NCBI GenBank assembly: GCA_017515105.1 | Contig: JAFWHO010000001.1 | Coordinates: forward strand, 1 to 64,000 | Reading direction: 5' to 3' | DNA length: 64,000 nucleotides | Origin: Candidatus Saccharimonadota bacterium | GTDB taxonomy: Bacteria; Patescibacteriota; Saccharimonadia; Saccharimonadales; Saccharimonadaceae | Shown here: in pieces, positions 4,697-54,623 of the stretch | How the letters are laid out: each line of letters starts with the position of its first letter | Numbering within the stretch: the stretch's first letter is position 1 | Notes under the pieces: generated by a model | The model's input: the letters and a program-made list of their open reading frames with translations, nothing else | The model's database searches: none | What the model was told of the DNA's origin: nothing | Translations under genes and position numbers: made by a program

Positions 4697-4727
4697 AAAA
4701 ATACAGCCCCAAGAGGGACTGTATTTT
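4697..4727 (-). terminator. Terminator after the WxL-like gene
   Basis: On the minus strand AAATACAGTCCC and a complementary GGG-CTGTATTT arm form a stem that runs into seven T residues. It separates the abundant surface-protein message from the two downstream genes. Confidence 0.85.
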
Positions 4728-4738
4728 AGAATAGCAAA

Positions 4739-5351: not shown

Positions 5352-5423
5352 TTTTTCTCCTTCCACTCTTTTTTGTGGAAATTAGTTTTTATTATTGTTA
5401 AATGTATAACCTTTAACATTTTC

Positions 5424-5452
5424 ATAATACATTAGCATTATGGGTATGTCAA
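5424..5452 (-). promoter_or_regulatory. Near-consensus promoter of the WxL-like gene
   Basis: TTGACA (5452-5447), a 17-bp spacer and TATTAT (5429-5424) on the minus strand. The predicted start near 5417 gives a leader of about 65 nt with a good ribosome binding site. This is one of the best promoters in the window. Confidence 0.85.
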
Positions 5453-5515
5453 GTTTTTTTCCACAAAAAAAGCAAAGTTTTCCACAACCCAATGTTTTTT
5501 TAACACCATTTTTTA

Positions 5516-6795: not shown

Positions 6796-6823
6796 ATTAA
6801 CCTCCAAATTTTTCTTATATATA

Positions 6824-7555: not shown

Positions 7556-7624
7556 TTTATAATTACTGCTTTTTAGGCTCAACCTTTGGGACCCCCCTCG
7601 TCCCACCTCAAATCATAAAAAGCA

Positions 7625-29969: not shown

Positions 29970-30491
29970 TTACTTCCGCCTCGAATTCGAAAACTTATCC
30001 ACCTGAATTACCTCATCCTCACGATATAGAAAACTACACGTAATCGCCGCCGCCAGCGCGTCTGCCGCATCATCCGGCTTCGGCTTCGTCTCAAGCCCGA
30101 GGTGCACTCGCACCATCTCTTCCATCTGCGTCTTCGTAGCACTACCATACCCGGTCAAGCTCTTTTTAATTTCATTCGGCGTATACTCCCGTACCTTCGC
30201 TCCATACTGCTCCGCCACCAGCAAAATCACCCCACGCGCTTCCGCAACCGCAATCCCAGTAGTGATATTCTTAGAAAAAAACAACTTCTCAATCGCCACC
30301 ACTTCCGGCTTAGTTTCTTTAAACACCTGAGTCAAAGACTCATATAGTTCCAACAGTCTCTCAGACATCGGCGCATCAACTTTCGTCGTCACAGCCCCAA
30401 AATCAAGCGCCTTCGCCCCCGCTCTCGAAGTCATTTCAATCAGCCCAAACCCACAAATGCCAATTCCCGGATCAATACCAAGTATTCTCAT
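29970..30491 (-). CDS. ruvC: Holliday junction resolvase RuvC
   Basis: Starts MRILGIDPGIGICGFGLI with the first catalytic Asp (D7). VAIEKLFFSKN carries the Glu, and KPDDAADALAAAITC the last Asp pair. It cuts Holliday junctions after branch migration. The ATG overlaps the radA stop by 4 bp (ATGA), so radA and ruvC are translationally coupled. 173 aa is normal. Confidence 0.96.
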   Translation of the reverse strand: MRILGIDPGIGICGFGLIEMTSRAGAKALDFGAVTTKVDAPMSERLLELYESLTQVFKETKPEVVAIEKLFFSKNITTGIAVAEARGVILLVAEQYGAKVREYTPNEIKKSLTGYGSATKTQMEEMVRVHLGLETKPKPDDAADALAAAITCSFLYREDEVIQVDKFSNSRRK

Positions 30492-31837
30492 TTTACATAC
30501 CTTATCAAAGTTTCGCGAAGATCCGCCATAGGTATCACGAATTTATCCTGCACAGTCTTTGGACCAATCGCATGCGAGAACCCAAGCTTCTTCGCCTCAG
30601 CAATCCTTTGGTCAGCCCTAAACGCTGACCGGATCTCACCACCCAGCCCCACTTCGCCGAATACCACATATTTATCATTCAATTTCCTACCCGCCACCGC
30701 CGACGCAATCGCCATGCATACCGCAAGATCAGCCGCCGAATCATTCAGTCGTATCCCACCAACCACATTTATGTACACATCATATTCCGACAATTTCAAT
30801 TTCGTACGCCGCTCCAGCACTGCGATGAGCAAATTCAAACGATTCAGGTCAAATCCCGAAGCCGTCCTTTTCGGATATCCATAATTAGACTTTGTGCAAA
30901 GCGCCTGAATTTCCACCAAAATCGGCCGATTTCCTTCGAGAGTCGCCAAAATGATCGAACCATCCGTATTCGTCCTTTCAGCCAATAGTGCCGCAGATGG
31001 ATTCTCAACTTCGTGAAGCCCAGAAGAAACCATTTCGAAAATTGCCACTTCATTCGTAGACCCAAAACGATTCTTCACCGCCCTCACAGTCTTGAACCCG
31101 CCATATCTATCACCTTCAAAATTCAAAACCACATCCACCAAATGTTCAAGCACCTTTGGCCCAGCCAACGTCCCCTCTTTAGTAACATGTCCTACAATAA
31201 TAACCGCGGTATCGGTTTGCTTTGCAGCCCGAATAATCAAATTTCCCGAATTCGTCACCTGCGACACCGTCCCTGGTGCGGACGAAATCTCATCCATTGC
31301 AAGTGTCTGTATTGAATCCACAATCACTAGATCAAACTTCCCACTCTCAATCGTTTTCGCAATATCATTAGAGCTCGTAGAAGCCGCAAAACACAGCCGA
31401 TCCGAATCCGCGCCGAGCCGCTCAGCCCTCAGCTTCACCTGTCCAGCCGATTCCTCACCCGACACATATAGAACATCGTGTTTCTTCGAAATCTCAGCCG
31501 ATATCTGCATCAGCAAAGTAGATTTACCAATCCCCGGTTGCCCAGCCAATAAACACACCGATCCCATCAATACACCACCACCAAGCACCGTATCAAATTC
31601 CGAAAATCCAGTAGAAAGCCTCGCCTTCGCATCCGAAGGCGTAATCGTAGAAATCTTCACAAAATCCAGTTTCTTGCCAGATATCCTACCCTTTTCAATC
31701 AAAGTTTTCTTACCACCATCCGGCTGGGCTACTTGCTCAACAAGAGAATTCCATTCGCCACAATTGGTGCACTGCCCAACCCACTTCGTATAAGTATTAC
31801 CGCATTGTTGGCAGACAAACTGACTCCTACTCTTCAT
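30488..31837 (-). CDS. radA: DNA repair protein RadA/Sms
   Basis: The N-terminal zinc finger CQQCGNTYTKWVGQCTNC, Walker A GQPGIGKST, the RadA-specific KNRFG motif (VKNRFGSTNE) and the C-terminal Lon-like domain (NVVGGIRLNDSAADLAV, VFGEVGLGGEIR) are all present in 449 aa. RadA promotes branch migration in recombination and, in naturally transformable bacteria, uptake of DNA. TATAAT lies 7 nt before the ATG in an extended -10 context, so the message should be near-leaderless. The stop overlaps ruvC. Confidence 0.96.
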   Translation of the reverse strand: MKSRSQFVCQQCGNTYTKWVGQCTNCGEWNSLVEQVAQPDGGKKTLIEKGRISGKKLDFVKISTITPSDAKARLSTGFSEFDTVLGGGVLMGSVCLLAGQPGIGKSTLLMQISAEISKKHDVLYVSGEESAGQVKLRAERLGADSDRLCFAASTSSNDIAKTIESGKFDLVIVDSIQTLAMDEISSAPGTVSQVTNSGNLIIRAAKQTDTAVIIVGHVTKEGTLAGPKVLEHLVDVVLNFEGDRYGGFKTVRAVKNRFGSTNEVAIFEMVSSGLHEVENPSAALLAERTNTDGSIILATLEGNRPILVEIQALCTKSNYGYPKRTASGFDLNRLNLLIAVLERRTKLKLSEYDVYINVVGGIRLNDSAADLAVCMAIASAVAGRKLNDKYVVFGEVGLGGEIRSAFRADQRIAEAKKLGFSHAIGPKTVQDKFVIPMADLRETLIRYVK

Positions 31838-31912: not shown

Positions 31913-34900
31913 CTATCTTCTCGGAGCTAGATCACGCTTGTACACGGTATCCAGCTTACCAGACTCCGTTACGTCAGCCTGATCAGAACCCCACAAATAC
32001 AAAGTAGTATCGTAATTAATTATCTCAGCCGGGATAACCGAATTAGCACCCGTAGCCGCACCGTAAGTCCTCTTCGCATCGATCTTATTCGCAATAGTCG
32101 AACCGTTGATTATGAGCTGACGCGAACTTATTCCGTCGGTGTCCGCACCGTCAAGATCGGCGCAAGTATCAATAACTTCTTCCGCAATCAATACCGCATC
32201 AACCCTACCTACATCACAATTAATCAAAATATTATTAGCATAAATAATCATCTTTGGCACATCCGTCAAAGATTCGTAATTATCTTCGTACAAAATATCA
32301 TCGTTTATCACGACATCTTTATTTTGAGCATAAATCACCCGAGTAGTACCCTTGCCTATAAGCTTGTCCTCATCCTGTAGCACATATTGGTCCGCTTCCT
32401 CATCAGGCCTAATCACTACCACGTTTTTCCTCTCAGCCTCTGCATCGTCCATATTCACAAAAGTCGCAACAAGAGACGAACGATTCGAAGTAGCCGACGA
32501 CAAACCAGAACCGCCCAGCCCCGGAGTGCTATTCACACAATTCAACCTATCTATTTCTGATGTATTTGCAAATGTCAACTTGCTCCGCTCACAGAAACTA
32601 GAGCCATATTTCTCAGCGTCAAATCCACCAGGATCCACGCTCATATTCCCCCATGGATTAGTTGCCGAATTAATAATCGGATTTGGCGACAAAACGCCAC
32701 CGTTATTACTAGCATATCCAGTAGCTGCACCACTGCTAAAACCCCTCACTTCACCAAGCGATACTACACCCAGTTCACCAAACGAACCAAATATCCTCAC
32801 CGGCTCAGTACTCGCGATATTGTAATTATTTAACCCTCTAACGTGCTTTTTCTCCGCCGCAGGAGTACTTAATCCACCAGCCGAGAACACGTTAGCACCC
32901 CACACCTGCAAGCTCGGCTTCTTATAAACCGCAAAACACTTAGCCTCCGAAATATTCCATTTATCGTCACCCTCTGGCTTCAAATTATCGTCACTTCCGC
33001 TCGTCGATGGATAAATCGCAGCCGCAACGCAAACCTTCACGCCAGCATCGAAATCCGGAACCGTAAATGAACTATCATTCTTGAGCTTTCCTTTATATCC
33101 TTCGGTGTTACCCTCTTGATTTAAAGTCTCCGAAATTTCATTATCCTTTGTCATTGTATAGCAACCCATATTACCAGAGTATCTACCACAAAGAGAAGAT
33201 TCATAAGTCCCATAGAGCTCATCTCCCTCCAAATTGGTAGAATCACCCGGCGCGAACACGATGAATCTAATTTTCGCATCCGTCTTAGTCGCATACGCTT
33301 TATCGTCGCGATTCATGGTTAAACCATTCTTCTTTGGATTCACTTCAACGCTAACGTTGATCTTACTGCTTTCGCCCGCTGCAAGCACAGGCTTCCCGAC
33401 TTCCTCGTTAGCTTTAAAATCGTCAACACTTATCTTGGTTGTAAAGTTATATGGCACCTTCACAGCGGCATCATTCCCAATCGAATCAATATTAACCGTA
33501 CTCAAAAATTCACTGCCCGCGTAGCTAAACGAAACTTGTTTCGGAGTAGTTTTGTTACTACCGCTCGCCGTATCGATATTGGTCTGAGCTCGCCCTTTCA
33601 ATGTGCGACCAACCTCATTATTCGAAACTGTGTATTTTTCACTTTTGTCTATCGGTGTAACACTTCCAACATCCCCAGTATAACTTTTGTTAAAACCGGT
33701 AGAGAAGAAGTTCTCACTTACCACCCCATAGCCATTATTCCAACCCAGGCCACTACCCATCTTACTATTAAAGAGAGCTCCGAGCGACGAACCACTTGGA
33801 TTATTATATTTCTGACCAGTCTGACCGTCCCCAGTTATCTTCAAAAATTCAGGAGTTAAATAATAGGCATATTGTAGTTGCGGATTATACGAAGAAACAA
33901 AATCAACATGATCCCCTGGCTTCGCATACGCCTCACTGCCTAATTCATTAAACTTATCAACATCATTATTTCGCACCTTCATATTCAAATAATCACTGTC
34001 GCCCACATCACGCGCATTACCCTCAACATATACGCACACTTCCCTAGTTGCAGTCGGCCTAGTTTTTGTCGAATCATTATTCGTTTCAAAAACCAGTTTT
34101 TCGCACACCTTCATCCCAGGATAAACCCTCAATGTACTCCCGCTTACTTTTTTGCCACTCGTCAAAGGCCCAGTCACGCTGCCGCCGTTAAAATTACCAT
34201 TATTTGTAATCTTCCTGTCACCCAATTCATCCGATGTCGCATTAGAAGTTCTCTCTATATGATACCTCGTAGTTCCTTTATTATCGCTCGTCCTGACATG
34301 ATGGCTAAACGAAATCTCACAACCACTACTCGCTGAGCAATTGACAACTTTAACGTTGGCCAAGTTATTTGTGCTACCATTACCCCAACCAGTGCTACCA
34401 GACGCCGCGCCAGACACGCCGGAATATCCTTCAAAAGTCGTAACTAAACCAGTAGCACAAGAGCTTACCGTCCTCAAAGTGCTCGAAGATAAATTACCAT
34501 ATGGTTTGAATTCCAAACTATGGCACACTTTCGCGCCGGGCAATACTTTGCTAAACGCACCTGCACTACTCCCGGTTTTAAGGAGCTGAGTTCCATCATC
34601 ATTTGATGTTGGCTCTATCGTATTATAGCCCTTCTTTGGATCCCACGTAGTGCTAGCTCCATTTCCGGCGTTATATCCCAACCTATAAGTAGTGTCACCA
34701 TCACCGCCTACGAGTTTAAGCTTCAAGAAATATTTCGCATTAGTACACCCACCGTCCGGACATTTCAAATTGATATTAACGCTTTTATTACTTGCAACCC
34801 AACCAGTCGAATTTTTGATGGTGGCATTTTCGTATCCACCCTGGCTGACGGCCGCTAAACCTTGAAAACTTTTCGGATTCGGCTTAGAACAGAAATAACC

Positions 34901-35560
34901 AACATATAGGGGAATCGAATCAACTTCGTCATCTCCAGTAGATGCTAAAAATCTATTATATAAAATCAACGCCGCACTTTGGGTTATCTTCACATTATTC
35001 CGAAATCCATTATTATCCAAATCTTTTAGTTTTACCACTCCATGGTTGTTATACACAGCTCTTTTGATAGCCTGGTCCTCACCATCCTTCACACGACTCG
35101 CCGGCCCAATCTGAAAGTTAAAATCAGCATACCCGTAAGCGCTACCATGCATCCCGTCCCACCCATAGGAAACAAGCCACCCATCACTTTTGCAATCATT
35201 TATGGCGTTCTTCTTCAGATCCTTCCCTTGCAAAATCCCGCCACCATAACCGGTATAATCATCTAGGCCATTCACATTGTCAACGGCTTTGAATATCCTC
35301 CAGCTCGCTCCACCGCCTTCAGCACCACTTACCGTCCAGTCCGTTTCACCTTTTTTATTCCTTCTCCAAATAAGGCATGGGTCATCATACGCATTATCAG
35401 CACAGCTTGCCGATGTACTATCCGACCACCCCCCTTCGCCTTCATCAGCATAAATATTGGGGCCTAAGGCAATACAGGCACATAATAGTAAAGCCACAAA
35501 GGTTACTTTCCGTAGCGCAGCCCCACGCCACAGGCTCTCACCAACTAATCGCCTAACCAT
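31913..35560 (-). CDS. Giant secreted surface protein, cassette copy 2
   Basis: 1215 aa. A signal peptide (about residues 17-38, ending IYADEG) is followed by a Gly/Asn/Ser-rich extracellular chain. Recognisable blocks shared with the 1267-aa paralogue include GGGASWRIFK, YGWDGMHGSAYGY, NFQIGPA and, near the end, VPKMIIYANNILINC, DAVLIAEE, DTCADLDG and LYLWGSDQADVTESGKLD. It ends DLAPRR. There is no C-terminal membrane helix or sortase motif. Paired Cys residues recur. I know no characterised family. The ATG lies inside the end of the upstream gene (16-bp overlap), with GGAGGAG before it, so translation is coupled. Confidence 0.8.
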   Translation of the reverse strand: MVRRLVGESLWRGAALRKVTFVALLLCACIALGPNIYADEGEGGWSDSTSASCADNAYDDPCLIWRRNKKGETDWTVSGAEGGGASWRIFKAVDNVNGLDDYTGYGGGILQGKDLKKNAINDCKSDGWLVSYGWDGMHGSAYGYADFNFQIGPASRVKDGEDQAIKRAVYNNHGVVKLKDLDNNGFRNNVKITQSAALILYNRFLASTGDDEVDSIPLYVGYFCSKPNPKSFQGLAAVSQGGYENATIKNSTGWVASNKSVNINLKCPDGGCTNAKYFLKLKLVGGDGDTTYRLGYNAGNGASTTWDPKKGYNTIEPTSNDDGTQLLKTGSSAGAFSKVLPGAKVCHSLEFKPYGNLSSSTLRTVSSCATGLVTTFEGYSGVSGAASGSTGWGNGSTNNLANVKVVNCSASSGCEISFSHHVRTSDNKGTTRYHIERTSNATSDELGDRKITNNGNFNGGSVTGPLTSGKKVSGSTLRVYPGMKVCEKLVFETNNDSTKTRPTATREVCVYVEGNARDVGDSDYLNMKVRNNDVDKFNELGSEAYAKPGDHVDFVSSYNPQLQYAYYLTPEFLKITGDGQTGQKYNNPSGSSLGALFNSKMGSGLGWNNGYGVVSENFFSTGFNKSYTGDVGSVTPIDKSEKYTVSNNEVGRTLKGRAQTNIDTASGSNKTTPKQVSFSYAGSEFLSTVNIDSIGNDAAVKVPYNFTTKISVDDFKANEEVGKPVLAAGESSKINVSVEVNPKKNGLTMNRDDKAYATKTDAKIRFIVFAPGDSTNLEGDELYGTYESSLCGRYSGNMGCYTMTKDNEISETLNQEGNTEGYKGKLKNDSSFTVPDFDAGVKVCVAAAIYPSTSGSDDNLKPEGDDKWNISEAKCFAVYKKPSLQVWGANVFSAGGLSTPAAEKKHVRGLNNYNIASTEPVRIFGSFGELGVVSLGEVRGFSSGAATGYASNNGGVLSPNPIINSATNPWGNMSVDPGGFDAEKYGSSFCERSKLTFANTSEIDRLNCVNSTPGLGGSGLSSATSNRSSLVATFVNMDDAEAERKNVVVIRPDEEADQYVLQDEDKLIGKGTTRVIYAQNKDVVINDDILYEDNYESLTDVPKMIIYANNILINCDVGRVDAVLIAEEVIDTCADLDGADTDGISSRQLIINGSTIANKIDAKRTYGAATGANSVIPAEIINYDTTLYLWGSDQADVTESGKLDTVYKRDLAPRR

Positions 35561-36054
35561 TCAGTCTCCTCCGCCTCATCACACTCCCATGTGGTCGAAT
35601 AAATATTTGATTGTAGATAGGCTTTTTGATCTTCCGAGTACATTGACATATCGATGTTATCCGAATAATCCCTCGCCTTCTCGCAATCATTTTCATTCAC
35701 CACCAAGAAAAGCATCTTTTGAGATATGATGTCGATAGCAAAATCATAATCGCCGGCTTCATTAGCTTTATTGATTACGTCATCAAAATACGCCTCAATC
35801 TCTTCCATGCTAACATCAGGACTATTCAACATTATAGAAGTATCCCTCGTGACTTTGTCCTCCGGAGTAAGGTTGTCTCCCTCCAGCTCCGTAGGCAAAT
35901 TATAATCACCCGAAGGCTCACTGTTACTACCCCCACGATTAACGGAGAGCACGATAATACCGATAGTCAATCCAATAATCACCAAAAAGAGAATTACTAA
36001 CGAAATCCTAAACCAAGCAGAATGCTTATCTTTCCCGCCCATATCGTCACTCAT
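35545..36054 (-). CDS. Single-pass membrane partner of the giant protein, copy 2
   Basis: 169 aa: a short cytoplasmic N-terminus, one membrane helix (about 16-37), an acidic linker and an extracytoplasmic helical domain with VSMEEIEAYFDDVINKANEAG and FLVVNENDCEKARDY. Two conserved Cys (in ENDC and near the C-terminus) match the paralogue at 40582-41052. The -10 (TAATAT) is about 6 nt before the ATG. The stop overlaps the giant gene by 16 bp. It is probably an anchor or assembly factor for the giant protein, an inference from coupling and co-duplication. Confidence 0.75.
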   Translation of the reverse strand: MSDDMGGKDKHSAWFRISLVILFLVIIGLTIGIIVLSVNRGGSNSEPSGDYNLPTELEGDNLTPEDKVTRDTSIMLNSPDVSMEEIEAYFDDVINKANEAGDYDFAIDIISQKMLFLVVNENDCEKARDYSDNIDMSMYSEDQKAYLQSNIYSTTWECDEAEETEWLGD

Positions 36055-36113
36055 ATAATTATATTAACATAAGCATCACTAGAAAACAACATCGCAGACT
36101 TTTAACACTAAAC

Positions 36114-36141
36114 AAAAAAGGGCCGAACTTACGTTCAACCC
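36114..36141 (-). terminator. Terminator between SLH-like gene and partner gene, copy 2
   Basis: On the minus strand GGGTTGAAC, a 4-nt loop and GTTCGGCCC pair (with two central mismatches), followed by six T residues. Confidence 0.75.
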
Positions 36142-36159
36142 ATATTTTGTGCAGCCTTA

Positions 36160-36636
36160 TTATTTCTTAGGCTGCATTTTTTTGTTTTCCCGGCAGATTT
36201 TATAAACTATCCTTGCTGCTCCATCCCGATGAACTATAGAGGCCGAAGTACTAGGATTGTCTATAGAAGTCCCCAGTTTTTTTGCAACAGCTCCAAGTTT
36301 TGCCCACATCCATTTATATGTTATTGGCTTGTTAGCTTTTTTTAAATCTGTCGCTGTAATAGGGACTTTTTTTACCCCATAAAAGTTAACTAAGATTATC
36401 AAAAACTCTAATCTAGTTATTCTTTTATCAAGGTAAAACTTCTTACCAGTAACAACGCCATCAAAGCCGTGGTGTTTCTTAATAAAAGAAACGGCTTTGA
36501 AGGTGTTTTTGCCTACGTCTTTCTCCACCACATCAGTATATGGTGGTTTGCCTTCCGCTGCAAATGCCACAGTCGGCACAGCAAGAAACATCGACGCAGC
36601 AACCAACAAAACTACAATCTTTTTTAAAAACTTCAT
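36160..36636 (-). CDS. Secreted SLH-domain-like protein, cassette copy 2
   Basis: 158 aa. A signal peptide ending TVAFAAEG is followed by a domain resembling one S-layer homology module: PYTDVVEKD, then AVSFIKKHHGFDGVVTGKKF, ITRLEFLIILVNFYG. SLH modules bind secondary cell-wall polymers. ATG at 36636 is chosen because GGAGGGAG lies about 7 nt upstream and the signal peptide then starts cleanly. It has a perfect promoter and a terminator just after it. The paralogue is at 41154-41627. Confidence 0.75.
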   Translation of the reverse strand: MKFLKKIVVLLVAASMFLAVPTVAFAAEGKPPYTDVVEKDVGKNTFKAVSFIKKHHGFDGVVTGKKFYLDKRITRLEFLIILVNFYGVKKVPITATDLKKANKPITYKWMWAKLGAVAKKLGTSIDNPSTSASIVHRDGAARIVYKICRENKKMQPKK

Positions 36637-36717
36637 ATTAAGCTCCCTCCTCCAAAACGGCCGCATGGCGATCCGTTTCAGCTAAATACTTGTTAATACT
36701 ACAAAAAATCTACTCCA

Positions 36718-36746
36718 ATTATATCACGCTACCCCTATTTTGTCAA
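36718..36746 (-). promoter_or_regulatory. Consensus promoter of cassette copy 2
   Basis: TTGACA (36746-36741), a 17-bp spacer and TATAAT (36723-36718), both hexamers perfect. The spacer resembles that of copy 1 (AGGGGTAGCGTGA against AGGGATGCGTGG). Confidence 0.92.
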
Positions 36747-36778
36747 CCATTACCCCAATAACCACCCCAGTAATAAGT

Positions 36779-39700
36779 TTATCTCTTTGGCGCAATCTCT
36801 CTAGAATAAGTAACGTCTAATTTACCAGTTTCCGTAACATCGGCCTGATTAGAGCCCCACAAATACAAAGTAGTATCATAATTGACTATCTCAGCCGGAA
36901 CGATAGAGTTACCACCCGCAGCTGCACCATAAGTCCTCCTAGCCTCGAGCTTATCAGTGATTATCGTACCATTGATCACGAGCTGATTCGAACTCTTGCG
37001 ACTCATACTATCACCATCTAAATCTGCACAGGTGTCAACAGTATTCTCCGCAATCAAGACCGCATCGATCCTCGTCACACCACAATTGATCCAAATGTTC
37101 TTAGCGTAAATAACCAATTTTGGAACATCAGATAATTTATAATAACCACTGTCGTCATACAATATGTTAGTATCTATAGTAACGTCGCCTTTTTGGGCAT
37201 ATATTACCTTAGTCTCACCAGGCGTTTCCTCTTCACCATTTCCTTTGGCTAGTAACACCTCCCCACTAATAGTATAGTCGCCGCCAGGCGTTTCTACCGT
37301 AACATTCTTCCTGGCTCTCTCTTCATCATTCATATTTACGAATGTAGCAATAAGAGATGATCTGTTAGCGGAAGCCGAAGACTGCCCAGACCCCCCCAAT
37401 CCAGTAGTGACACCATTATTGCAGCCTGTATTGGCAAATGTTAATCTACTTCGTTCGCAGAAATCAGAATCAGAACCACCAACGTACCCACCAAACGATT
37501 CAATCGGCAATTTTTGGTTGATAAGCACGTTCAGCATATTAGCAGGAAAGCTTTGGCGAGGAATCATGACATGGTCACGCTCGTTGTAGCCTGCATATCC
37601 AGTAGCTGCCCCACTGCTAAACCCAGAAACGCTACCCAGTGAAATCACACTAATCTCACCAAACGATCCAAAGATTCTTCCAGCCCCCTTACTCAAAATA
37701 TTATAATCATCGTAACCATTATTTTTAAAGATATGCTTCTTCACCGCGACCGGAGTGTCGATCTTGCCAGCCGAGAATACATTACCGCCCCACACCTGCA
37801 AACTCGGTTTCTTATAAACTGCAAAACATTTAGCTTTCGAAATATTCCACTTGTCATCACCCTTAGGGTTCAAATTTGCGTCGCTACCACTCGTCGACGG
37901 ATACACTGCAGCCGCAACGCAAACCTGAGTACCAGCATCAAGGTCTGGAACAGTAAACCCGCTGTTTTCATCGGTCGAACCACCATTAAGACCGACACTC
38001 TGCAACACGCGTGAAGCTACCTTTCCTGCATTATCGGACTTTTCTACAAACGTTTCGCTACAGACACTGCTTCCGCTATATCTATTACAAAGCGCCGAAT
38101 TGAGCGTTCCATAATCAGTAGTATCCTCCGGATAAGTTGAACCACCAGGCACAAATAGGATTAACTTCAATTTCGCATCATCAGACTTCGTAGCATACTT
38201 TTCGTTGGCATCATTAGTAGTCAAATCGTTGTGCTTCTTAAGCAAATCAACATGAATCTTTACATTGCCATTCTCACCAGAAGCAAAGGCAGGCTTCTCT
38301 TTACCGTCAACTTTCACAGTCCTCGCCCCCTCAAGCTCTACGTCAATCGCAGTCGTAAAGTTATATGGCACCTTCACGCTGGTAGCTTTCTCAACGGGAG
38401 TAGTTATAACATTGGCTACCATTTTACCATTGTCGCGAGAGAAGGTCACCTGACTTGGGGTAGTCGTATTGCTAATCTTCCCAGGAATATTTTGATTAGT
38501 TTTTGCCTTCTCTCTCAGTTCAAGCCCAACGTGGGTATTGCTTATTTCGTACGAATCCCCTTCGTCGCTTTGAGATCGTGAATCACCGGCGTCATATTTT
38601 ACACTCCTATCAAAATCGCCAAAATCACCCGTCTTTGCTCCGTTACTATCATATTTTTCACCTTTAACCCCATAACCATTATTCCAATTGTCGTAACCAG
38701 ATCCTTTAACGCTGTTAAACAGATTTCCCAAAATAGCCTTATTGGCATTCTCACTCTTCCAAACTCCATCAATTTTCAAAACATCAGGAACCAAATGATA
38801 TGAATATTGCAACACCGGGTCATAGTTCACGCGAAATTGTACTTTATCGCCCGGTTTTGCATAAACCATCTGCTGATAATCATTATATTTCGTGACATCG
38901 TTATTCTTTGCCTTAATATCCAAGAAAACATGCGCATTAGAATCACCAGGTTGTGCATTCCCCGTAGCAAATGCACATACCTGCCTATTTTTGACTACAG
39001 ATTTATATGAATAATGGTTGGTGTAATTAAAGTATAATGCCTCACAAACCTTCACGCCAGGATACATAGTAACCGCCAACGAACTCACTGTTTGCGCCGT
39101 TTCGCCCGCATATGCCGACCCGTCAAAGGTACCAGCATTAAATTTACCATTATTTGCAATCTTTTTATTTCCTAAATTATCAGAAGTAGCATTTGAAACC
39201 CTCGCCACATAGCGACCCGAAGAACCGATATTCTTTTTAGTTCCACTAGTCTTCTTGATGTAATGGTTAAACGTCACACTACAGCCATCAGTGGAACAAT
39301 TCGCTGATACGTTTTTTGGATTCTCTGCACCGTTTTCCTCTTCTAACCCATTCCCCCATTTCGTATCCCCAGACATTCCCCCAGAAACACTAGATTTCCC
39401 AACGAAGTAAGTCTCATTTACTGTTGCGCAAGCACCCACCCTTTTTATATCACTTCCATCTTCACCATCCGTAAGGAAATACATATATTTACAATGCTTC
39501 TCACCAGGGTCGACATCGCCCCACGAACCATTCTTCCCCTTTAAGCCCTTCAAGATATGATCACCAGAAGTACTGCCATCTAGTAAAACGGTGCCGGTAA
39601 GAGCGGTTTTCTTTCTGTAATTCTTGTCGTTAGCATCAGTCATTGTGCCCGTAGTGCTGACTATCTTGTATTTAGTTGTCCCACTGCCACCTTTGGATCT

Positions 39701-40582
39701 CATTCTGATCAAATACCTAGTCCGAACCCCCGCATTTGGACCATTCATTGAAATAGAAGCCGTTTTGTCCCCCTTCTTCCAACCGGTATCAGCCTTATTT
39801 GAAGCTGTTTTCCAGGCGCCCTCACTAACGTAAGCCTTACCTTCGAAATTATCGCTTTCCGCTTCCTTCCCACAAAAAGCACCGACCGATGGCGGTATTA
39901 CAGAAGCTTTAGGGTTAACGTATGTCTGATATGCCACTAGAGCAGCCCCTTTAGATATTTTAGTATTATTAGCAAATTTACTCTCATTCATTATGTAGTA
40001 CACTTCCCCATTAGCTTTCTTCTTCTTTATGGTTACTTTTTTCTTCCCGTAATTATTATACGCAGCTCCGGCGATAACTCCTGCGCGTTTTGCCGGGCCA
40101 ATCTGAAAATTAAATTTAGAGTACCCATAGGCGCTACCATACATCCCATCCCACCCGAAAGAGAAAAGCCAATCTGCACCGATTTCTTTACACGCATCCA
40201 AAATATCATCTTTCAAACTTTCCGCCAGAATATTCCCGCCATAGCTCGTAGAATCATCCAGGCCGGGAGCATTTTGTTTTACACTAAATATTCTCCAGCT
40301 CGCCCCACCACCACCACTACCAGCCCCTTTGCCAGCATCGCAAAGCCCAGTGAATGCGTTATTTGGCCAATTGCAGTTCGCAACGACACCATCAGTGTAA
40401 CTACCTTCAATCCATTCATATTCCGTATATGCATTCACTTTATTTGATAAATTATTTACAAGAAAAACAGATAACAAAACAGCGAAAATAACACGTCTGA
40501 AAAACACCAAGCCACCGCCTAGGCTGCGACTCATACTTTTACAATTGCATCGTTTTTGCTTATTTCTAAAATAGTAACCCAT
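36779..40582 (-). CDS. Giant secreted surface protein, cassette copy 1
   Basis: 1267 aa, paralogue of the 1215-aa protein downstream. The N-terminus is long and basic before the signal helix (about residues 29-46). The same ordered blocks occur: GGGASWRIFS, FGWDGMYGSAYGY, NFQIGPAKRAG, YARVSNATSDNLG, CVAAAVYPSTSGSD and, near the end, VPKLVIYAKNIWINC, DAVLIAEN and LYLWGSNQADVTETGKLD. It ends EIAPKR. Divergence is spread over the whole length, so the duplication is not recent. The start overlaps the TAA of the upstream gene (TAATG) with GAGGAGG before it. Surface display is inferred from the signal peptide and extracellular-type composition. Confidence 0.8.
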   Translation of the reverse strand: MGYYFRNKQKRCNCKSMSRSLGGGLVFFRRVIFAVLLSVFLVNNLSNKVNAYTEYEWIEGSYTDGVVANCNWPNNAFTGLCDAGKGAGSGGGGASWRIFSVKQNAPGLDDSTSYGGNILAESLKDDILDACKEIGADWLFSFGWDGMYGSAYGYSKFNFQIGPAKRAGVIAGAAYNNYGKKKVTIKKKKANGEVYYIMNESKFANNTKISKGAALVAYQTYVNPKASVIPPSVGAFCGKEAESDNFEGKAYVSEGAWKTASNKADTGWKKGDKTASISMNGPNAGVRTRYLIRMRSKGGSGTTKYKIVSTTGTMTDANDKNYRKKTALTGTVLLDGSTSGDHILKGLKGKNGSWGDVDPGEKHCKYMYFLTDGEDGSDIKRVGACATVNETYFVGKSSVSGGMSGDTKWGNGLEEENGAENPKNVSANCSTDGCSVTFNHYIKKTSGTKKNIGSSGRYVARVSNATSDNLGNKKIANNGKFNAGTFDGSAYAGETAQTVSSLAVTMYPGVKVCEALYFNYTNHYSYKSVVKNRQVCAFATGNAQPGDSNAHVFLDIKAKNNDVTKYNDYQQMVYAKPGDKVQFRVNYDPVLQYSYHLVPDVLKIDGVWKSENANKAILGNLFNSVKGSGYDNWNNGYGVKGEKYDSNGAKTGDFGDFDRSVKYDAGDSRSQSDEGDSYEISNTHVGLELREKAKTNQNIPGKISNTTTPSQVTFSRDNGKMVANVITTPVEKATSVKVPYNFTTAIDVELEGARTVKVDGKEKPAFASGENGNVKIHVDLLKKHNDLTTNDANEKYATKSDDAKLKLILFVPGGSTYPEDTTDYGTLNSALCNRYSGSSVCSETFVEKSDNAGKVASRVLQSVGLNGGSTDENSGFTVPDLDAGTQVCVAAAVYPSTSGSDANLNPKGDDKWNISKAKCFAVYKKPSLQVWGGNVFSAGKIDTPVAVKKHIFKNNGYDDYNILSKGAGRIFGSFGEISVISLGSVSGFSSGAATGYAGYNERDHVMIPRQSFPANMLNVLINQKLPIESFGGYVGGSDSDFCERSRLTFANTGCNNGVTTGLGGSGQSSASANRSSLIATFVNMNDEERARKNVTVETPGGDYTISGEVLLAKGNGEEETPGETKVIYAQKGDVTIDTNILYDDSGYYKLSDVPKLVIYAKNIWINCGVTRIDAVLIAENTVDTCADLDGDSMSRKSSNQLVINGTIITDKLEARRTYGAAAGGNSIVPAEIVNYDTTLYLWGSNQADVTETGKLDVTYSREIAPKR

Positions 40583-41052
40583 TAATCGGCCTCCTCTTCA
40601 ACTTCACACTCACTCAAAATAGAATCAACATTAGTCGTTAAATACAAGAGTTCGTCGTCTGAGTAAAAAGAGGTATCGAGGCCTTTGTAATACTCGTTTG
40701 CCCCTTCACAATCATTTTCATTAATCACCAGAAAAAGTGTCCTTTGGACTATAATTCTTGCAGCTAAACTATAATTCCCGTCATTATTGGCGTCATTGAT
40801 TACACTATCATAATACTCTTCTATTTCTTCCACGCCAATATTAGAATCTTCACGCATTGCAGAAACCTTTTCCATGACTCTGGTTTCCAACACACTATCG
40901 TCTTCTACAGGTTCATCGCTTTTATCATTACCACGACTAACACCCACCATAACTATCCCAATTATCAACCCGACTATCGCCAAGATTAGCACCACAAAAA
41001 CAACTCTATACGGAACGATCCCTTTCTCCTTCCCAGTTTTATTGTCGCTCAT
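40582..41052 (-). CDS. Single-pass membrane partner of the giant protein, copy 1
   Basis: 156 aa. One membrane helix (about 15-36), an acidic linker, then IGVEEIEEYYDSVINDANNDG and FLVINENDCEGANEYY, colinear with the copy-2 partner, including both Cys residues. ATG at 41052 is chosen because a TATTAT box lies 7 nt upstream (leaderless) and the protein then starts MSDNK, like MSDDM in the paralogue. Its stop overlaps the giant gene start. Confidence 0.75.
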   Translation of the reverse strand: MSDNKTGKEKGIVPYRVVFVVLILAIVGLIIGIVMVGVSRGNDKSDEPVEDDSVLETRVMEKVSAMREDSNIGVEEIEEYYDSVINDANNDGNYSLAARIIVQRTLFLVINENDCEGANEYYKGLDTSFYSDDELLYLTTNVDSILSECEVEEEAD

Positions 41053-41111
41053 ATTATTAATAATAGCACAAGCAGAATAGCAAAACAATACCCATAATGC
41101 CTTAGTATCTG

Positions 41112-41143
41112 TAAAAATTTAAGGCCAGGCAAACGCCTGGCCT
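41112..41143 (-). terminator. Terminator between SLH-like gene and partner gene, copy 1
   Basis: AGGCCAGGC (41143-41135 on the minus strand) and GCCTGGCCT pair perfectly over 9 bp with a GTTT loop, followed by TAAATTTTT. Confidence 0.88.
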
Positions 41144-41153
41144 ATGCTGACAA

Positions 41154-41627
41154 CTACTTCTGCGGCTTCATCCTAAAGTCCTGGTATAAGTAGCCATAAA
41201 TATAACATACCGCAAGATGCCGAGGCACCTTAAAATTCGCGGGACGCCAATCTATGACCCCCTTCTTTCTGGACTTTTTGAGAACCGCATTCAGTTTGTT
41301 TATAACCCACTGTGCCCTAATGGGCTTTTTGTATTTTTTACGGTCCGTTGCCGTGATTGGAACTCGTTTCTTCCCGTAAAGGTTTACGAGGATTTTAAGA
41401 AACTCCTTCCGTGTCATGACCTTCTCAGGGTAGAATTTGGTGCCTTTTATAACACCTTTAAAGCCGCTGTGTTTTTTAATGTATTTTACGGCTTTATAGA
41501 CATCTCTACCCCAATATTCTACAGTCACATCAGTATAAGGTTTTGTGGCTGCAAAAACGGGTACCGTTACCAACAGCATGGCAGTTGCCAATAACAATAA
41601 GGCTACAAATTTTTTAAACATTCTCAT
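41154..41627 (-). CDS. Secreted SLH-domain-like protein, cassette copy 1
   Basis: 157 aa. A signal peptide (ending VPVFAATK) is followed by an SLH-like module: PYTDVTVEYWGRDVYKAVKY, GFKGVIKGTKFYPEKVMTRK, EFLKILVNLYG. The C-terminal half (VPITATDRKKYKKPIRAQW) matches the paralogue at 36160-36636. ATG at 41627 is chosen for the AAAGGTGG at a suitable distance; earlier in-frame GTG codons exist. Its role may be to tie the giant protein to the cell wall of this or a neighbouring cell, an inference. Confidence 0.75.
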   Translation of the reverse strand: MRMFKKFVALLLLATAMLLVTVPVFAATKPYTDVTVEYWGRDVYKAVKYIKKHSGFKGVIKGTKFYPEKVMTRKEFLKILVNLYGKKRVPITATDRKKYKKPIRAQWVINKLNAVLKKSRKKGVIDWRPANFKVPRHLAVCYIYGYLYQDFRMKPQK

Positions 41628-41681
41628 GGCAATCACCACCTTTCTTATATTCTTGATGAGATGTTCAAAAATTCTGCCCTA

Positions 41682-41710
41682 ATTATACCACGCATCCCTG
41701 TTTTTGTCAA
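41682..41710 (-). promoter_or_regulatory. Consensus promoter of cassette copy 1
   Basis: TTGACA (41710-41705), a 17-bp spacer and TATAAT (41687-41682), both perfect. The leader is about 50 nt. Upstream, 41720-41815 is C- and A-rich with no feature. Confidence 0.92.
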
Positions 41711-41818: not shown

Positions 41819-42403
41819 CTATTTAATTATCTCGTCAATAATCCCATATTTCTTCGCTTCTTCGGCGCTCATCCAGTTATCGCGGTCCATATCCTTCTCA
41901 ACCTGCTTCAAATCTTTCCCGGTATTTGCGGCAAAAATCTCCGCGAGGCGCTTCTTCAGGAACACCCCTTCGCGCAACATAATTTCCTGATCGGTAATTT
42001 TTCCCTCTGTACCGGATGACGGCTGGTGAATCATAATACGCGAATTCGGCAAACAATACCTCTTGCCCTTCGCCCCAGAGGACAAAAGCATCGCCCCCAT
42101 ACTCGCCTGTAGCCCAATCCCAATCGTCTCCACATCCGGCTCAATATAATTCATCGTATCAATAATCGCCAGCCCATCATACACACTCCCCCCAGGGGAA
42201 TTAATGTAAAGCTTGATCGGTTTCTTATTATCCTCATGCGCGAGATACAGAAGCTGCGCAATCACCAAATTAGCCGTATGCGAATTCACATCCTCCCCAA
42301 GAAACACAATCCGGTCATTGAGGAGCCTCGAATAAATATCATACGCCCTCTCCCCCTTATTTGTCTCCTCTACCACTGTAGGAACTAAATAATTCTTTGC
42401 CAT
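41819..42403 (-). CDS. clpP: ATP-dependent Clp protease proteolytic subunit
   Basis: 194 aa. [14 protein letters not shown], the nucleophile context GLQASMGAM, the His context SRIMIHQPS and the following Asp region form the ClpP catalytic triad. It forms the barrel protease that works with ClpC. AAAGGAG lies 6 nt before the ATG. It follows clpC by 21 bp, so both are on the CIRCE-controlled message. Confidence 0.96.
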
Positions 42404-44975: not shown

Positions 44976-45794
44976 TTATACTTCTCGAAGAACAGTATAT
45001 TGTGCTTCCAGCTCTGGGCCATAACCTGTAAAGCCAGGTAGCTCAAACTCCCATTCACCAGCGTCGTTCAACGTGAATATAATATCATAAGCAACACTTA
45101 CCTCATCGTTAATTATATGCGTGGGCATGTATTTAACCCAGTAAGCCACTTTATCATTGCCGTTATATTTAGCGTAAACGTTGGCATAGCCCACTCCATA
45201 ACCAAGCTGCTTCCCAGTAACTGCCTTCACTAGAAGGTCCAAAGCGGTATCGCCGTTTAATTCCTTAGCTTCAGTCGGAGTATTGGTGTTATCTTCTTCA
45301 GTATTTCCACCAGCGTTATTTTCCTCAAGCTCAATAATTTTTTCCGACAGCTCATTATTTTGCTTCTTCAACGAACTAATCTGCGTATTTAATTGTTCCT
45401 TCTGCGTATTCCCATCCATCATCGCCCATACACCAAAGCCAATCCCGCCGACTGCTAAGATCAAGCACAAGATCAAGCCATACAGCATTCCCTTACTGCT
45501 CTTCTTTTCACTCACGCCCTGCGCCATTATGTTTGGTTCTGGCTCTTTGGCCTTAGGCTCTGTTTTCGTTAAATTTGGAGTTGCAGGCGCATTCGCTACA
45601 CTAGTAGCACTAGCAGCCCCGGCAGCACCAGCCCCCGCCGCAGCGGTACCAGCCGCACCGGCTGCACTAGCAGCACTAGCGACACCAGCGACACCAGCGA
45701 CGCCAGCTACACCAGCCGGACTAGCACCAGCTGCCCCGGCAGCGCCAGCCGCATTTTGATTTGGCGTTCCAGCCACATTTTGATTTGGTTGCAT
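44976..45794 (-). CDS. Membrane protein with an Ala/Gly-rich low-complexity N-terminus
   Basis: 272 aa. Residues 1-75 consist largely of Ala, Gly, Val and Ser in short repeats (AAGAAGAAG, GVAGVAGVAGV). One membrane helix follows (about 102-122), then a coiled coil (about 130-160), an acidic linker and a C-terminal globular domain of about 100 aa. With a positive charge before the helix (KKSSKG) the Ala/Gly part should be cytoplasmic and the globular domain outside. No family recognised. GGAAGGG lies before the ATG. Confidence 0.72.
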   Translation of the reverse strand: MQPNQNVAGTPNQNAAGAAGAAGASPAGVAGVAGVAGVASAASAAGAAGTAAAGAGAAGAASATSVANAPATPNLTKTEPKAKEPEPNIMAQGVSEKKSSKGMLYGLILCLILAVGGIGFGVWAMMDGNTQKEQLNTQISSLKKQNNELSEKIIELEENNAGGNTEEDNTNTPTEAKELNGDTALDLLVKAVTGKQLGYGVGYANVYAKYNGNDKVAYWVKYMPTHIINDEVSVAYDIIFTLNDAGEWEFELPGFTGYGPELEAQYTVLREV

Positions 45795-50457: not shown

Positions 50458-52263
50458 CTAGAGTGAGAATAGGCAAAGCACTATAATATTAACTACCGCA
50501 ATACAAGCTACTACACGAATCCCCCACTTAAACCATGTAGAATAATCTACTTTAGCAAGTGCAAGACCGCCCATGATCGCCCCACAAGTAGGAGTGATCA
50601 AGTTGACAAGACCATTCGCTGACACGATCGTCATTGCAGCAACGTTTGTACTGTAGCCAAGGTTTGCAGCCACTGGCGCAATAATTGGCGTCGACAAAGT
50701 AGCAAGCCCAGATGACGAAGGCACCAAGATTGAAAGGAATACATGTAGTATGTAGTTCAAAGGCACAAATGCCATTTCTGGGAGGGTTGCAAGGAAATTA
50801 GATGCATTGTAGATGATATAGTTGTCGATATGAGTCTCAGCCATCAATACTGATGCGCCACGAGCAACCGCAATCACTAGGATTACGCCAATCATATCAT
50901 CCGCCCCATCTACAAATGCGTCCACGAATCCGTGTTCGCCCTGACGGTTGATAATTGCAATAATGATCGAACAAATGAGGAACCAAAGTGCAGCTTCATA
51001 GAACCACCAGTTACCAAGTGTTGACCCGGTCAACCAGCCAGTCCATGAATCGAAGAACGTAATTCCAAATTCACCCCATGGAATGAACCCAACAATCATC
51101 ACGATAAATGTTATCGCAAATACAATAAGTGTTGCAATTTGTTTACCGGATAATTTGTCGGCCTCACCCTGAGCCTTCAAGAACTTACCATAAGTCTTTT
51201 CAGCAGCTGCCTGCTCGCGCAAACTGAGGAAAGTTGACCCCTTATCACGCTGAACTTTCTTTGCGTAACGAATCACAAAGAATGCTGCGATAGCAAGCGT
51301 AGTCAACCATAATACTACGGCAATTAGGATCACAGTACCTTGGTTAAATTCTATTCCAGCGTCTTTCATGGCCGAAAGTGCCACACCAGTTGCAAACGGG
51401 TTGATGGTTGAACCGAGCACGCCTGCACCTGCACCAAGCAAAATCGTTGCTACACCCACAAGTGGATCTAGTCCCGCAGCAAACATTGTCGCCGCAATAA
51501 GCACATAGAAGCCGACGCTTTCTTCGAGGAATCCATATGTCGTACCGAGAATTGAGAAGATAAACATCAAAAGTACGATTAGTAGGTATTCCTTGCCATG
51601 CAATTTTTGAACCAATTTTTTGATACCAGTTTCGAGTGCCTTCGTGCGTGATACCACAGCAAGCAAACCGCCAAGCATCATGATGAAGATGCATACATCA
51701 ATAGCATCGGCGAAGCCAAGAATTGGTGACATCAAAACTTGATGGAGAGCAGCGCCTTCTACGCCAGTACCATCTACGATCGTACATTCTTCATTCTCTT
51801 CTTCACAAGCTTCGAGCGTATCGTATGTTACAGCTTCCTCTGCTCCGATAGTAGCCGCAACATCTTCCCCATCCTCATTTTCTGCTATAAGCATAGGTTC
51901 GTGGGCGGCACGATTAGACATTTCGTCATCCGAGACCGCTTCGTCAGCTACCATTCTCGGCTCTGGTGTTTCATCACCAACAACCGGCTCAGCATTTTCC
52001 CCTTCTGGCAACGCCAACGGCTCGATGTCCGCCGGGGCTTCACCTTTAAGCTCTGCCGGACCACCAGCCGGAGCTTCCCCCTCCCATTCACCAGGACCAA
52101 CCTCAACCTCGGAGGACTCGTCTTCTGGCAAAAGTGCTTGATATTTCGCTTTTGGCAAACAATGTGAAGCGATGCCAAGAGCAATAATCAAAATCATAAT
52201 AATCGAGTAAGCCGAAAGTATCGCACGGCTCTTTTTCTTACTACGATTCTTCTTTTTAAACAT
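50458..52263 (-). CDS. YfcC-family membrane transporter with an acidic extracytoplasmic insertion
   Basis: 601 aa. After the first helix (about 17-36) there is an unusually long acidic stretch to about residue 170, rich in Glu, Pro and Ala, with a CEEENEEC pair. From about 180 on there are 10-11 helices with family motifs (GTTYGFLEESVGFY; LGAGAGVLGSTINPFATG; LVPSSSGLATLSTPIIAP; LITPTCGAIMGGLALA). YfcC/C4-dicarboxylate-type carriers next to arc genes are thought to exchange arginine for ornithine. It is downstream of arcA on the same strand, with a good ribosome binding site (AAAGGAG...GGAA). Confidence 0.85.
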   Translation of the reverse strand: MFKKKNRSKKKSRAILSAYSIIMILIIALGIASHCLPKAKYQALLPEDESSEVEVGPGEWEGEAPAGGPAELKGEAPADIEPLALPEGENAEPVVGDETPEPRMVADEAVSDDEMSNRAAHEPMLIAENEDGEDVAATIGAEEAVTYDTLEACEEENEECTIVDGTGVEGAALHQVLMSPILGFADAIDVCIFIMMLGGLLAVVSRTKALETGIKKLVQKLHGKEYLLIVLLMFIFSILGTTYGFLEESVGFYVLIAATMFAAGLDPLVGVATILLGAGAGVLGSTINPFATGVALSAMKDAGIEFNQGTVILIAVVLWLTTLAIAAFFVIRYAKKVQRDKGSTFLSLREQAAAEKTYGKFLKAQGEADKLSGKQIATLIVFAITFIVMIVGFIPWGEFGITFFDSWTGWLTGSTLGNWWFYEAALWFLICSIIIAIINRQGEHGFVDAFVDGADDMIGVILVIAVARGASVLMAETHIDNYIIYNASNFLATLPEMAFVPLNYILHVFLSILVPSSSGLATLSTPIIAPVAANLGYSTNVAAMTIVSANGLVNLITPTCGAIMGGLALAKVDYSTWFKWGIRVVACIAVVNIIVLCLFSL

Positions 52264-52312: not shown

Positions 52313-53545
52313 TTACGCCTTTTCCTCCCGGACCAATGCCATTGCCATACAGTGTGAGCCACCGCGCCCACGCGAAAGTTCAGAACTTGGAATCTCGATC
52401 ACTTTAACCCCATGTTTCCTAAGCGTCTGATTTGTTACAAAGTTTCGGTCATACGCCGCAACAACGCCAGGACGAATACAAAGTAAATTCACGCCATCAC
52501 TCCATTGTTCGCGTTCAGCATCAATTCTTTTACCATTTCCACATTTAATAAACTCAACTTTAGAAAGATGTAAGTATTTCTCCAAAATCTTTTTAAGATC
52601 TTGGTGTATTTCCACGATTTCAAGTTCACCTCCACGGCCTTCAGAAATTTCATAAACCGTAGAGATATCCATAATAGCATCTTGCACAGCAAACTTGTCA
52701 ACATCAACCTGAGTCATCACCGTATCGAGATGCATAAAGCTTCTCTCGTCAGGAATGTCGATTGCGAGCACATATTTAAAATCGTTTTTCTTGTCTTTGA
52801 ATAACGCTTTTGCAAAATTCGCAATTGCATCAGGTTCAGTTCTTTGTGAAACACCAATCGCCACAACTTCCGGAGACAGTACCTCGATATCGCCACCCTC
52901 AATCGAATATGGTTCCGTCCTATCATAATAAAGTTTAACGTCATCATAAAATGGATGGTATTCATAAACATATTCCATAAAGATCGACTCACGCGTTCTC
53001 GTCACTGCCCACATCTTATGAAGCGTTGCGCCATGCCCAACCGTCGCCATCGGATCGCGCTGGAACAAAATATTTGGAATAGGATCAATAATCATTTTTC
53101 CAGTATCACGCGTCGCATAAAAACCAGACACCTTACCAAGCTTCTTGAGCTCAGAAATATCAATACCGGCAATACATTTCTTCACCATATCCCGAGTGTC
53201 TTTAATACTATTCAAATAATCGAAACAGTGTTTCGCCGTCTTTGGCGAAGTTACGCCCGCTTCAGCAATAAATTGCTCCAAGAATTTTCTCCTTACTGTA
53301 CGACCACCAGCTTCAATCGCCTCAGCCGCAAGATCAGTAATATATACTACTTCAACGCCCTCAGCCCTAAGCGCATTTGCATAAGCATCATGTTCTTGTT
53401 GTGCAATCTTTAAATAAGGAATATCGTCAAACAATAATCTCTCGAGAGTATTTGGCGTCAAATTCAAAAACTCATCACCCGGGCGGTGCATTAGCACTCT
53501 TTTGAGTGGCGCAACCTCACTAAAATTCGTTATAATGTTCTTCAT
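52313..53545 (-). CDS. arcA: Arginine deiminase
   Basis: 410 aa. VLMHRPGDEF, FQRDPMATVG (usually FTRDP), EGGDIEVLS, FMHLDTVMTQVD with the catalytic His-Asp pair, and RGGSHCMAMAL with the nucleophile Cys are the ADI landmarks. It converts arginine to citrulline plus ammonia. The start at 53545 lies inside the 3' end of arcB (26-bp overlap), with AAGGAGG 5-6 nt upstream, so translation is coupled. This is the first step of the pathway completed by arcB and arcC. Confidence 0.94.
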   Translation of the reverse strand: MKNIITNFSEVAPLKRVLMHRPGDEFLNLTPNTLERLLFDDIPYLKIAQQEHDAYANALRAEGVEVVYITDLAAEAIEAGGRTVRRKFLEQFIAEAGVTSPKTAKHCFDYLNSIKDTRDMVKKCIAGIDISELKKLGKVSGFYATRDTGKMIIDPIPNILFQRDPMATVGHGATLHKMWAVTRTRESIFMEYVYEYHPFYDDVKLYYDRTEPYSIEGGDIEVLSPEVVAIGVSQRTEPDAIANFAKALFKDKKNDFKYVLAIDIPDERSFMHLDTVMTQVDVDKFAVQDAIMDISTVYEISEGRGGELEIVEIHQDLKKILEKYLHLSKVEFIKCGNGKRIDAEREQWSDGVNLLCIRPGVVAAYDRNFVTNQTLRKHGVKVIEIPSSELSRGRGGSHCMAMALVREEKA

Positions 53546-54545
53546 TTTGTTCCTCCTTATCATATAATGTCAAAAACATCACAGATTTAATTGTGTGCAT
53601 TCTGTTCTCTGCTTCTTCAAATACCAATGAGCGTTCTGAATTAAACACCTCATCCGTCACTTCCATCTCGGTCAAATCGAATTTTTCACCAATCTCCTTT
53701 CCGACCGTAGTATTGAGATCATGGAACGAAGGTAATGGATGCAAAAATACCGTTGTTGGCTTCGCATTATTCATCATCTCCATCGTCACGCGATATGGTT
53801 TAAGAAGAGTAATTCTTTCTCCCCACTTATCTTTGTCTTCTCCCATCGATAGCCACACGTCTGTAAAAATCGCATCCACCTTACCGTTCAAATCATTTAC
53901 ATCGTTAGTAACAGTTATCGTCGAGCCATTCTTCTCGGCCACAGGTGCACATTCCTGAACCACGTCCTCAGCAGGATGCAAGTCTTCTGGTCCGCAAGCA
54001 ATAAAGTTTACACCCATTTTTGCGCTCATCGCCATTAGTGAATTAGCTACGTTGTTACGCGTATCACCAACGAAGGCGATAGTAAGACCTTTTAGCTCCC
54101 CAAAATGCTCTTCTATTGTCATAAAATCGGCAAGCGCCTGCGTAGGATGACAATAATCGGTAAGGCCATTCCAAACCGGTACGCTAGAGTATTGCGCCAA
54201 TTCATCCACGGTTTTTTGTTCAAAACCCCTAAATTCAATTCCGTCATAGAATCTCTCAAGTACCCTCGCGGTATCTGCAATTGATTCCTTGTGCCCCATC
54301 TGCGATCCGGTCGGATCAAGATAGGTTACACCCATACCAAGATCGTACCCGGCAACTTCAAAAGAACACCTGGTCCTGGTCGAAGTTTTCTCAAACAGAA
54401 TTGCGATGTTCTTTAATGGAAACACTTTGTGGTTTTTATGCTCATGTTTTAGTTTTTTTAATCTTTTTGCGGTATCCAACATCAAACGAAGCTCTTCCTC
54501 ATTGAAGTCTAGAATCCGCAACAAGTCTCGTCCTTTTAAATTCAT
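53520..54545 (-). CDS. arcB: Ornithine carbamoyltransferase, catabolic type, with an HPLP motif
   Basis: 341 aa. STRTR (55-59) binds carbamoyl phosphate, HPTQ (133-136) is conserved and DVWLSMGE (229-236) is the ornithine-binding SMG loop. The normal HCLP motif reads HPLPSFHD (269-276), with Pro for the ligand-binding Cys, as in aspartate transcarbamoylases. The rest clearly matches OTC. It splits citrulline into ornithine and carbamoyl phosphate. The ATG at 54545 has AAAGGG 9 nt upstream and a TTGTGT-N17-TATAAT promoter. Confidence 0.92.
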   Translation of the reverse strand: MNLKGRDLLRILDFNEEELRLMLDTAKRLKKLKHEHKNHKVFPLKNIAILFEKTSTRTRCSFEVAGYDLGMGVTYLDPTGSQMGHKESIADTARVLERFYDGIEFRGFEQKTVDELAQYSSVPVWNGLTDYCHPTQALADFMTIEEHFGELKGLTIAFVGDTRNNVANSLMAMSAKMGVNFIACGPEDLHPAEDVVQECAPVAEKNGSTITVTNDVNDLNGKVDAIFTDVWLSMGEDKDKWGERITLLKPYRVTMEMMNNAKPTTVFLHPLPSFHDLNTTVGKEIGEKFDLTEMEVTDEVFNSERSLVFEEAENRMHTIKSVMFLTLYDKEEQNEEHYNEF

Positions 54546-54570
54546 TAATGTATGCCCTTTTTATGCTTTC

Positions 54571-54617
54571 ATTATATAGCAAACCCATTTTAAACACAAG
54601 CATTTTCGTGTTATAAT
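54571..54617. promoter_or_regulatory. Divergent arcB / arcC promoters
   Basis: Minus strand: TTGTGT (54599-54594), 17 bp, TATAAT (54576-54571) for arcB. Plus strand: extended -10 TGT-TATAAT (54612-54617), 6 nt before the arcC ATG. The -35 of arcB lies in an AACAC-N10-GTGTT inverted repeat that abuts the arcC -10, so one bound protein could control both directions. Confidence 0.7.
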
Positions 54618-54623
54618 CACAGC

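Follow-up and report, generated by a model that had tools for sequence, protein, structure and literature searches.

Among the described systems that display adhesins on bacterial surfaces, PilC/PilY1 combines a constant C-terminal part with variable N-terminal modules and is encoded together with pilus genes (PMC8179133). In the modular type IV pilins, such as PilB and PilC of Streptococcus sanguinis and PilX1 and PilX2 of Nanosynbacter lyticus, an adhesive module is displayed on the pilus by a carrier part, and in some of them this module is a vWA domain (PMC8179133, PMC12206443). The Gram-positive adhesins of the PrgB type contain tandem Ig-like stalk domains. Pili are essential for the epibiotic lifestyle (PMC10633639), and the need for pili is reported also in a second study, in which PilX2 is the proposed adhesin of N. 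lyticus, a candidate only (PMC12206443).

The locus analyzed here belongs to a window of 64,000 nucleotides, the first part of contig JAFWHO010000001.1 of a Saccharibacteria genome, and encodes two giant secreted proteins (hereafter, giants). Judging from sequence comparison, the preferred interpretation, to which we assign a probability of about 0.62, is that the giant and its membrane partner, present here in two copies, represent a modular adhesin associated with type IV pili that works like PilC/PilY1 with a different carrier domain. In the ORF layout of the window, two consecutive cassettes occupy the minus strand between clpP (41819-42403) and radA (30488-31837), and in each copy the order is an SLH-like secreted protein, a terminator, a single-pass membrane protein and a giant:

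41682..41710, minus strand: perfect sigma-70-type promoter of SLH-like gene 2 (12/12 matches, 17-nt spacer, TG extension)
41154..41639, minus strand: SLH-like secreted protein, copy 2, 161 aa (paralogy; sub-threshold Pfam SLH match, E=0.056)
41122..41143, minus strand: intrinsic terminator after SLH-like gene 2 (9-bp stem with 7 G-C pairs, T tail)
40582..41052, minus strand: single-pass membrane partner, copy 2 (MSDN..., ATG start inside a TTG ORF)
36779..40582, minus strand: giant secreted protein, copy 2, 1267 aa (paralogy with giant 1)
36782..37810, minus strand: conserved C-terminal carrier domain of giant 2, ending EIAPKR (match to profile A4)
36718..36746, minus strand: perfect sigma-70-type promoter of SLH-like gene 1 (12/12 matches to TTGACA-17-TATAAT, TG extension)
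36160..36666, minus strand: SLH-like secreted protein, copy 1, 168 aa (paralogy with copy 2)
36120..36141, minus strand: intrinsic terminator after SLH-like gene 1 (9-bp stem, T-rich tail)
35545..36054, minus strand: single-pass membrane partner, copy 1, 169 aa (AlphaFold model with a TM helix at residues 12-38, then helical hairpins)
31913..35560, minus strand: giant secreted protein, copy 1, 1215 aa (signal peptide, Cys modules, Ig-like domains, C-terminal carrier)
34013..34891, minus strand: two tandem Cys-containing modules of giant 1, residues ~224-516 (pairwise giant alignment; many-stranded beta region in the model)
31916..32923, minus strand: conserved C-terminal carrier domain of giant 1, ending DLAPRR (match to profile A4; short-strand pattern)

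The tandem gene order given in a preliminary description of this DNA holds, coordinates included, as does the paralogy of all three products: pairwise alignment yields 44% identity end to end for the giants (E=0), 42% for the membrane partners (E=5e-42) and 45% for the SLH-like proteins (E=2e-34). The promoters and overlaps are kept as described, with the same promoter pattern in both copies. The membrane protein gene overlaps the start of the giant by 16 nt in copy 1 and by 1 nt in copy 2, so that these two genes probably form one operon; the SLH-like gene, which has a promoter and a terminator to itself, constitutes a unit apart. The suspected CPR origin is borne out as well, the genome being that of a Nanosyncoccus-like member of the Saccharibacteria whose named close relatives come from the rumen and gut and include Candidatus Nanosyncoccus alces. 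Across the 4 contigs (811 kb) of the window genome, these two giants are the only ones.

Elsewhere in the window, genes for arginine deiminase, ornithine carbamoyltransferase and a putative carbamate kinase (52313-55562) make up the arginine deiminase system of this gut Saccharibacterium and adjoin a gene for a C4-dicarboxylate-type (DcuC) carrier (50458-52263). The gene beside clpC (44976-45794) encodes a protein with a long Ala/Gly/Val-rich N-terminal repeat tract, and relatives retain one or two copies of this gene at that place; a secreted protein with a sub-threshold WxLIP_PGBD match (3087-4049) is encoded at one end of a run of small proteins that are secreted or membrane-bound (3087-8614).

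The giants possess a Sec-type signal peptide. In the model of mature giant 1 (pLDDT 78.9), the N-terminal part is disordered or uncertain, residues ~190-810 form a long run of beta-sandwich domains, and this run is followed by short strands with beta-helix-like spacing and a helical insert, suggesting that the C-terminal domain is a beta-helix. Foldseek and VIA-align, run on the whole giant, gave matches that mainly cover its Ig-like region (residues 192-841). The sandwich run is similar to the tandem Ig-like stalks of adhesins like PrgB (Foldseek E=1e-8), with the VIA-align Z score of ~8 indicating a common arrangement only; the PrgB-type adhesins differ from the giants in their ends, share no common anchor with them and show sequence identity of ~8%. 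For the C-terminal fold, this whole-giant search, with its matches mainly in the Ig-like part, retrieved no known structure, and the C-terminal domain has no family in Pfam, NCBIfam or PHROGs and no sequence match in the PDB; the family is uncatalogued. No description of the giant family was found in the literature searched. Common ancestry of this domain with PilX or minor pilins was considered and discarded, the profile test giving no match better than E=0.03.

At the extreme C-terminus, of 145 giants, 127 have P-(R/K)-x as their last three residues and 141 have E or D at position -6, the conserved tail being (E/D)-x-x-P-R-(Y/F). The window giants end in APRR and APKR, so the conserved AP(R/K)R terminus that had been proposed is real. 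The repeated Cys modules, also part of that description, are clear in the pairwise alignment of the giants but were not returned by BLAST self-comparison. The N-terminal regions of the giants of relatives are heterogeneous in domain content, with vWA in 4 of 48, DUF11 in 2 and CBM60 in 1.

Like PilC/PilY1 (PMC8179133), the giants are large secreted proteins, not pilins, whose genes accompany those for pili or minor pilins, and they have a constant C-terminal part, variable N-terminal modules that include vWA and the potential for more than one copy. They differ in lacking the PilC beta-propeller (Neisseria_PilC, PF05567), for which there was no match at E 0.1 among 70 C-terminal domains and none at E 0.01 among 48 full giants, in the short strands with beta-helix-like spacing predicted by the model, in the small single-TM TPR-type partner encoded directly upstream and in the conserved C-terminal tail. 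Because the defining beta-propeller was tested for and is missing, the giant is not filed as PilY1, although, by analogy, it may work like PilY1. The likeness to modular type IV pilins lies in the display of an adhesive module by a carrier part, with vWA modules in some members of both groups, whereas the prepilin signal and the pilin module are absent from the giants (0/145) and the carrier is located at the C-terminus rather than at the N-terminus.

Outside the window's genus, the gene immediately preceding the giant codes for a small protein with a single TM segment in 59 of 78 cases. The AlphaFold model of partner copy 1 (pLDDT 85.9) consists of the TM helix plus helical hairpins, and TPR Pfam matches are found in 16 of 57 partner relatives; for the window copies themselves, there was no significant Pfam match, with none to TPR, and no significant fold match, the structure matches being weak and mixed. 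The two cysteines that had been called conserved are indeed common to both window copies but are absent from many relatives and are not conserved beyond the near ones.

The pair is widespread. With a single-sequence query, the giant C-terminal region was detected in 108 of 151 genomes of the family, and it is present in 56 of 60 genomes of the genus; with the 70-sequence profile (A4), the domain was found in 179 of 195 sampled Saccharimonadia genomes, representing 85 of 96 genera. In other Patescibacteria classes, the core of this domain has weak matches in ~60 of 264 genomes, some of them as tandem pairs (e.g. G467:C1 53932-58020, G549, G344), and in another Saccharimonadia family (G245:C2 316129-316833), a 25,343-residue open frame gives a weak match to the giant C-terminal profile.

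Beyond the window's genus, gene neighborhoods were compared for 68 loci, which come from 66 genomes in 52 genera and were chosen by match and not by context. In 49 of these loci, covering 42 of the 52 genera, pilM lies directly downstream of the giant on the same strand, usually with a gap of 30-60 nt, followed by pilN, pilO, pilB and so on, and in 7 more loci, minor pilins or a PilX-like gene (pilX) adjoin the giant. Hence, a secreted non-pilin giant is co-encoded with pilus or minor-pilin genes in 56 of the 68 loci of relatives, although not at the window locus, and 12 of the 68 have no pilus neighbor. Pfam confirms PilM and the PilB/PilT ATPases; the PilX_N and N_methyl (pilin methylation motif) matches are sub-threshold. 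Such an operon neighborhood does not prove that the giant is on the pilus. An unlikely alternative is that the partner anchors the giant to the cell as a stand-alone surface stalk that binds the host without a pilus, with the pilus genes nearby for reasons of co-regulation only; the partner is membrane-anchored, the Ig-like stalk resembles that of the cell-wall adhesin PrgB, and the pair resides in the radA/murC/clpP region in the window and in most genomes of the genus. However, a giant with no role in the pilus would hardly account for the direct pilM adjacency in 42 of 52 genera from many families and for the minor pilins next to it in others, and no sortase-type anchor was seen at the giant C-terminus. 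The preliminary description had suggested a dedicated surface apparatus, perhaps for host attachment, with two specificities; of this, surface or secreted proteins that probably serve host attachment with two specificities stand, as do the conserved C-terminus and the divergence towards the N-terminus, but not the stand-alone apparatus, since the pair is encoded with type IV pilus genes across the class.

Within the window's genus, the pair is usually located before radA or near aspS and minor pilins; it lies beside minor pilins in loci L038 and L039 and near aspS and minor pilins in L082, L113 and L114. The window genome, with both copies between clpP and radA, possesses a full pilM operon of its own without a giant. 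Because of this, and because its minor-pilin cluster encodes a different secreted protein, the giants of the window lineage appear to have left the neighborhood of the pilus genes. That other protein, of 919 aa (L258:12640-15399; G000:C4 ~100.6-103.4 kb), has Fib_succ_major and Listeria-Bacteroides repeat matches, and relatives often have a giant near this cluster. The completeness of the giant-less pilM operon also counts against the notion that the giant is a component of pilus assembly or envelope anchoring rather than an adhesin, its N-terminal variation being driven by phages or some other pressure and not by host choice. The near-universal presence of the pair and its place as the first two genes of the pilM operon throughout the class are what such a component would lead one to expect, but the extreme N-terminal variation, with vWA and CBM60 modules, and the tandem copies are not, and we consider this reading improbable.

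The SLH-like gene has a different distribution. It is present in only 8 of 100 genomes of the genus, the window genome included; among the sampled giant loci, it occurs solely at that of the window, and in the other carrier genomes, it is found away from the giants. A third copy in the window genome stands alone shortly past the type IV pilus operon, on its 3' side (L171:9229-9693; G000:C4 281234-281692), from which it is separated by a recombinase gene and one other gene, and a copy occupies this place in three or four other genomes as well, G153, G202 and G240 among them. Even the SLH label is weak: both cassettes do contain the gene for a secreted protein, but the best Pfam SLH score is 14.7 bits against the cut-off of 20.8, with one partial repeat. 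The initial reading, in which two complete tandem sets with matching promoters and terminators were taken for an attachment apparatus of three dedicated genes that had been duplicated together, is therefore very improbable, given that the SLH-like gene is missing from nearly all relatives, has its own promoter and terminator and, when the set was searched for in relatives, turned up singly in other contexts. The conserved unit is the pair of the membrane protein and the giant, and the three-gene set is local; the SLH-like gene would be a separate transcription unit that joined the giant locus in the window lineage.

The two ends of the giants evolve differently. Giants 1 and 2 are ~30% identical close to the N-terminus, and this value climbs to 68% in the final block. 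Across genomes, the first 300 aa show 27% identity between paralogs within a genome vs 20% between genomes, and the last 120 aa show 74% vs 49%; for these last 120 residues, the paralog from the same genome is the nearest neighbor for 20 of 38 giants vs 0.6 expected with shuffled labels. In genome G150, two giants on separate contigs share ~360 nt at 100% identity between flanks of ~50%, which is what a gene conversion tract looks like. As read from these patterns, the C-terminal end is homogenized by gene conversion within genomes while the N-termini diverge; the same gradient is seen in the window pair, which has no recent conversion tract. In several genomes, contigs end at the C-terminus of a giant, at sites where the two copies are alike. 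DNA inversion was considered as the meaning of these breaks and dropped, because the identical stretch common to the ends is one k-mer long, consistent with identical C-termini having been collapsed in assembly. Relatives that lack the SLH-like gene also have tandem giants. Parts of the N-terminal half of the window giants resemble other species at least as much as each other, and for giant 1 one part has its closer counterpart in other species, not in giant 2. These observations indicate that the copies are not simply a recent local duplication and that the duplication is old. In loci L101 (G177) and L084 (G174), two giants are encoded close together in opposite orientation between murC and radA, those of L101 with near-identical C-terminal ends.

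Under the pilus-linked adhesin interpretation, Sec would export the giant, the TPR-type partner would hold it at the membrane, possibly via the (E/D)-x-x-P-R-(Y/F) tail, and the giant would be handed over to the minor-pilin tip or the pilus base. The C-terminal domain would be the carrier, the Ig-like domains the stalk and the N-terminal modules the part that binds the host cell, so that two copies would offer two N-terminal specificities on the same carrier. A more specific proposal, which is possible but which we advance only tentatively, is that the adhesin is loaded on the type IV pilus via the carrier domain and the tail, the latter read by the membrane TPR partner, a route unlike those of PilY1 and modular pilins, and that the swappable N-terminal halves, with the shared carrier kept by gene conversion, set the host range.

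The giants are probably what these bacterial parasites use, as part of their pilus, to grip the host. Nearly class-wide, uncatalogued and encoded where the main pilus operon begins, a protein that joins variable N-terminal halves to a common C-terminal carrier is a direct candidate for the determinant of the host range in Saccharibacteria.
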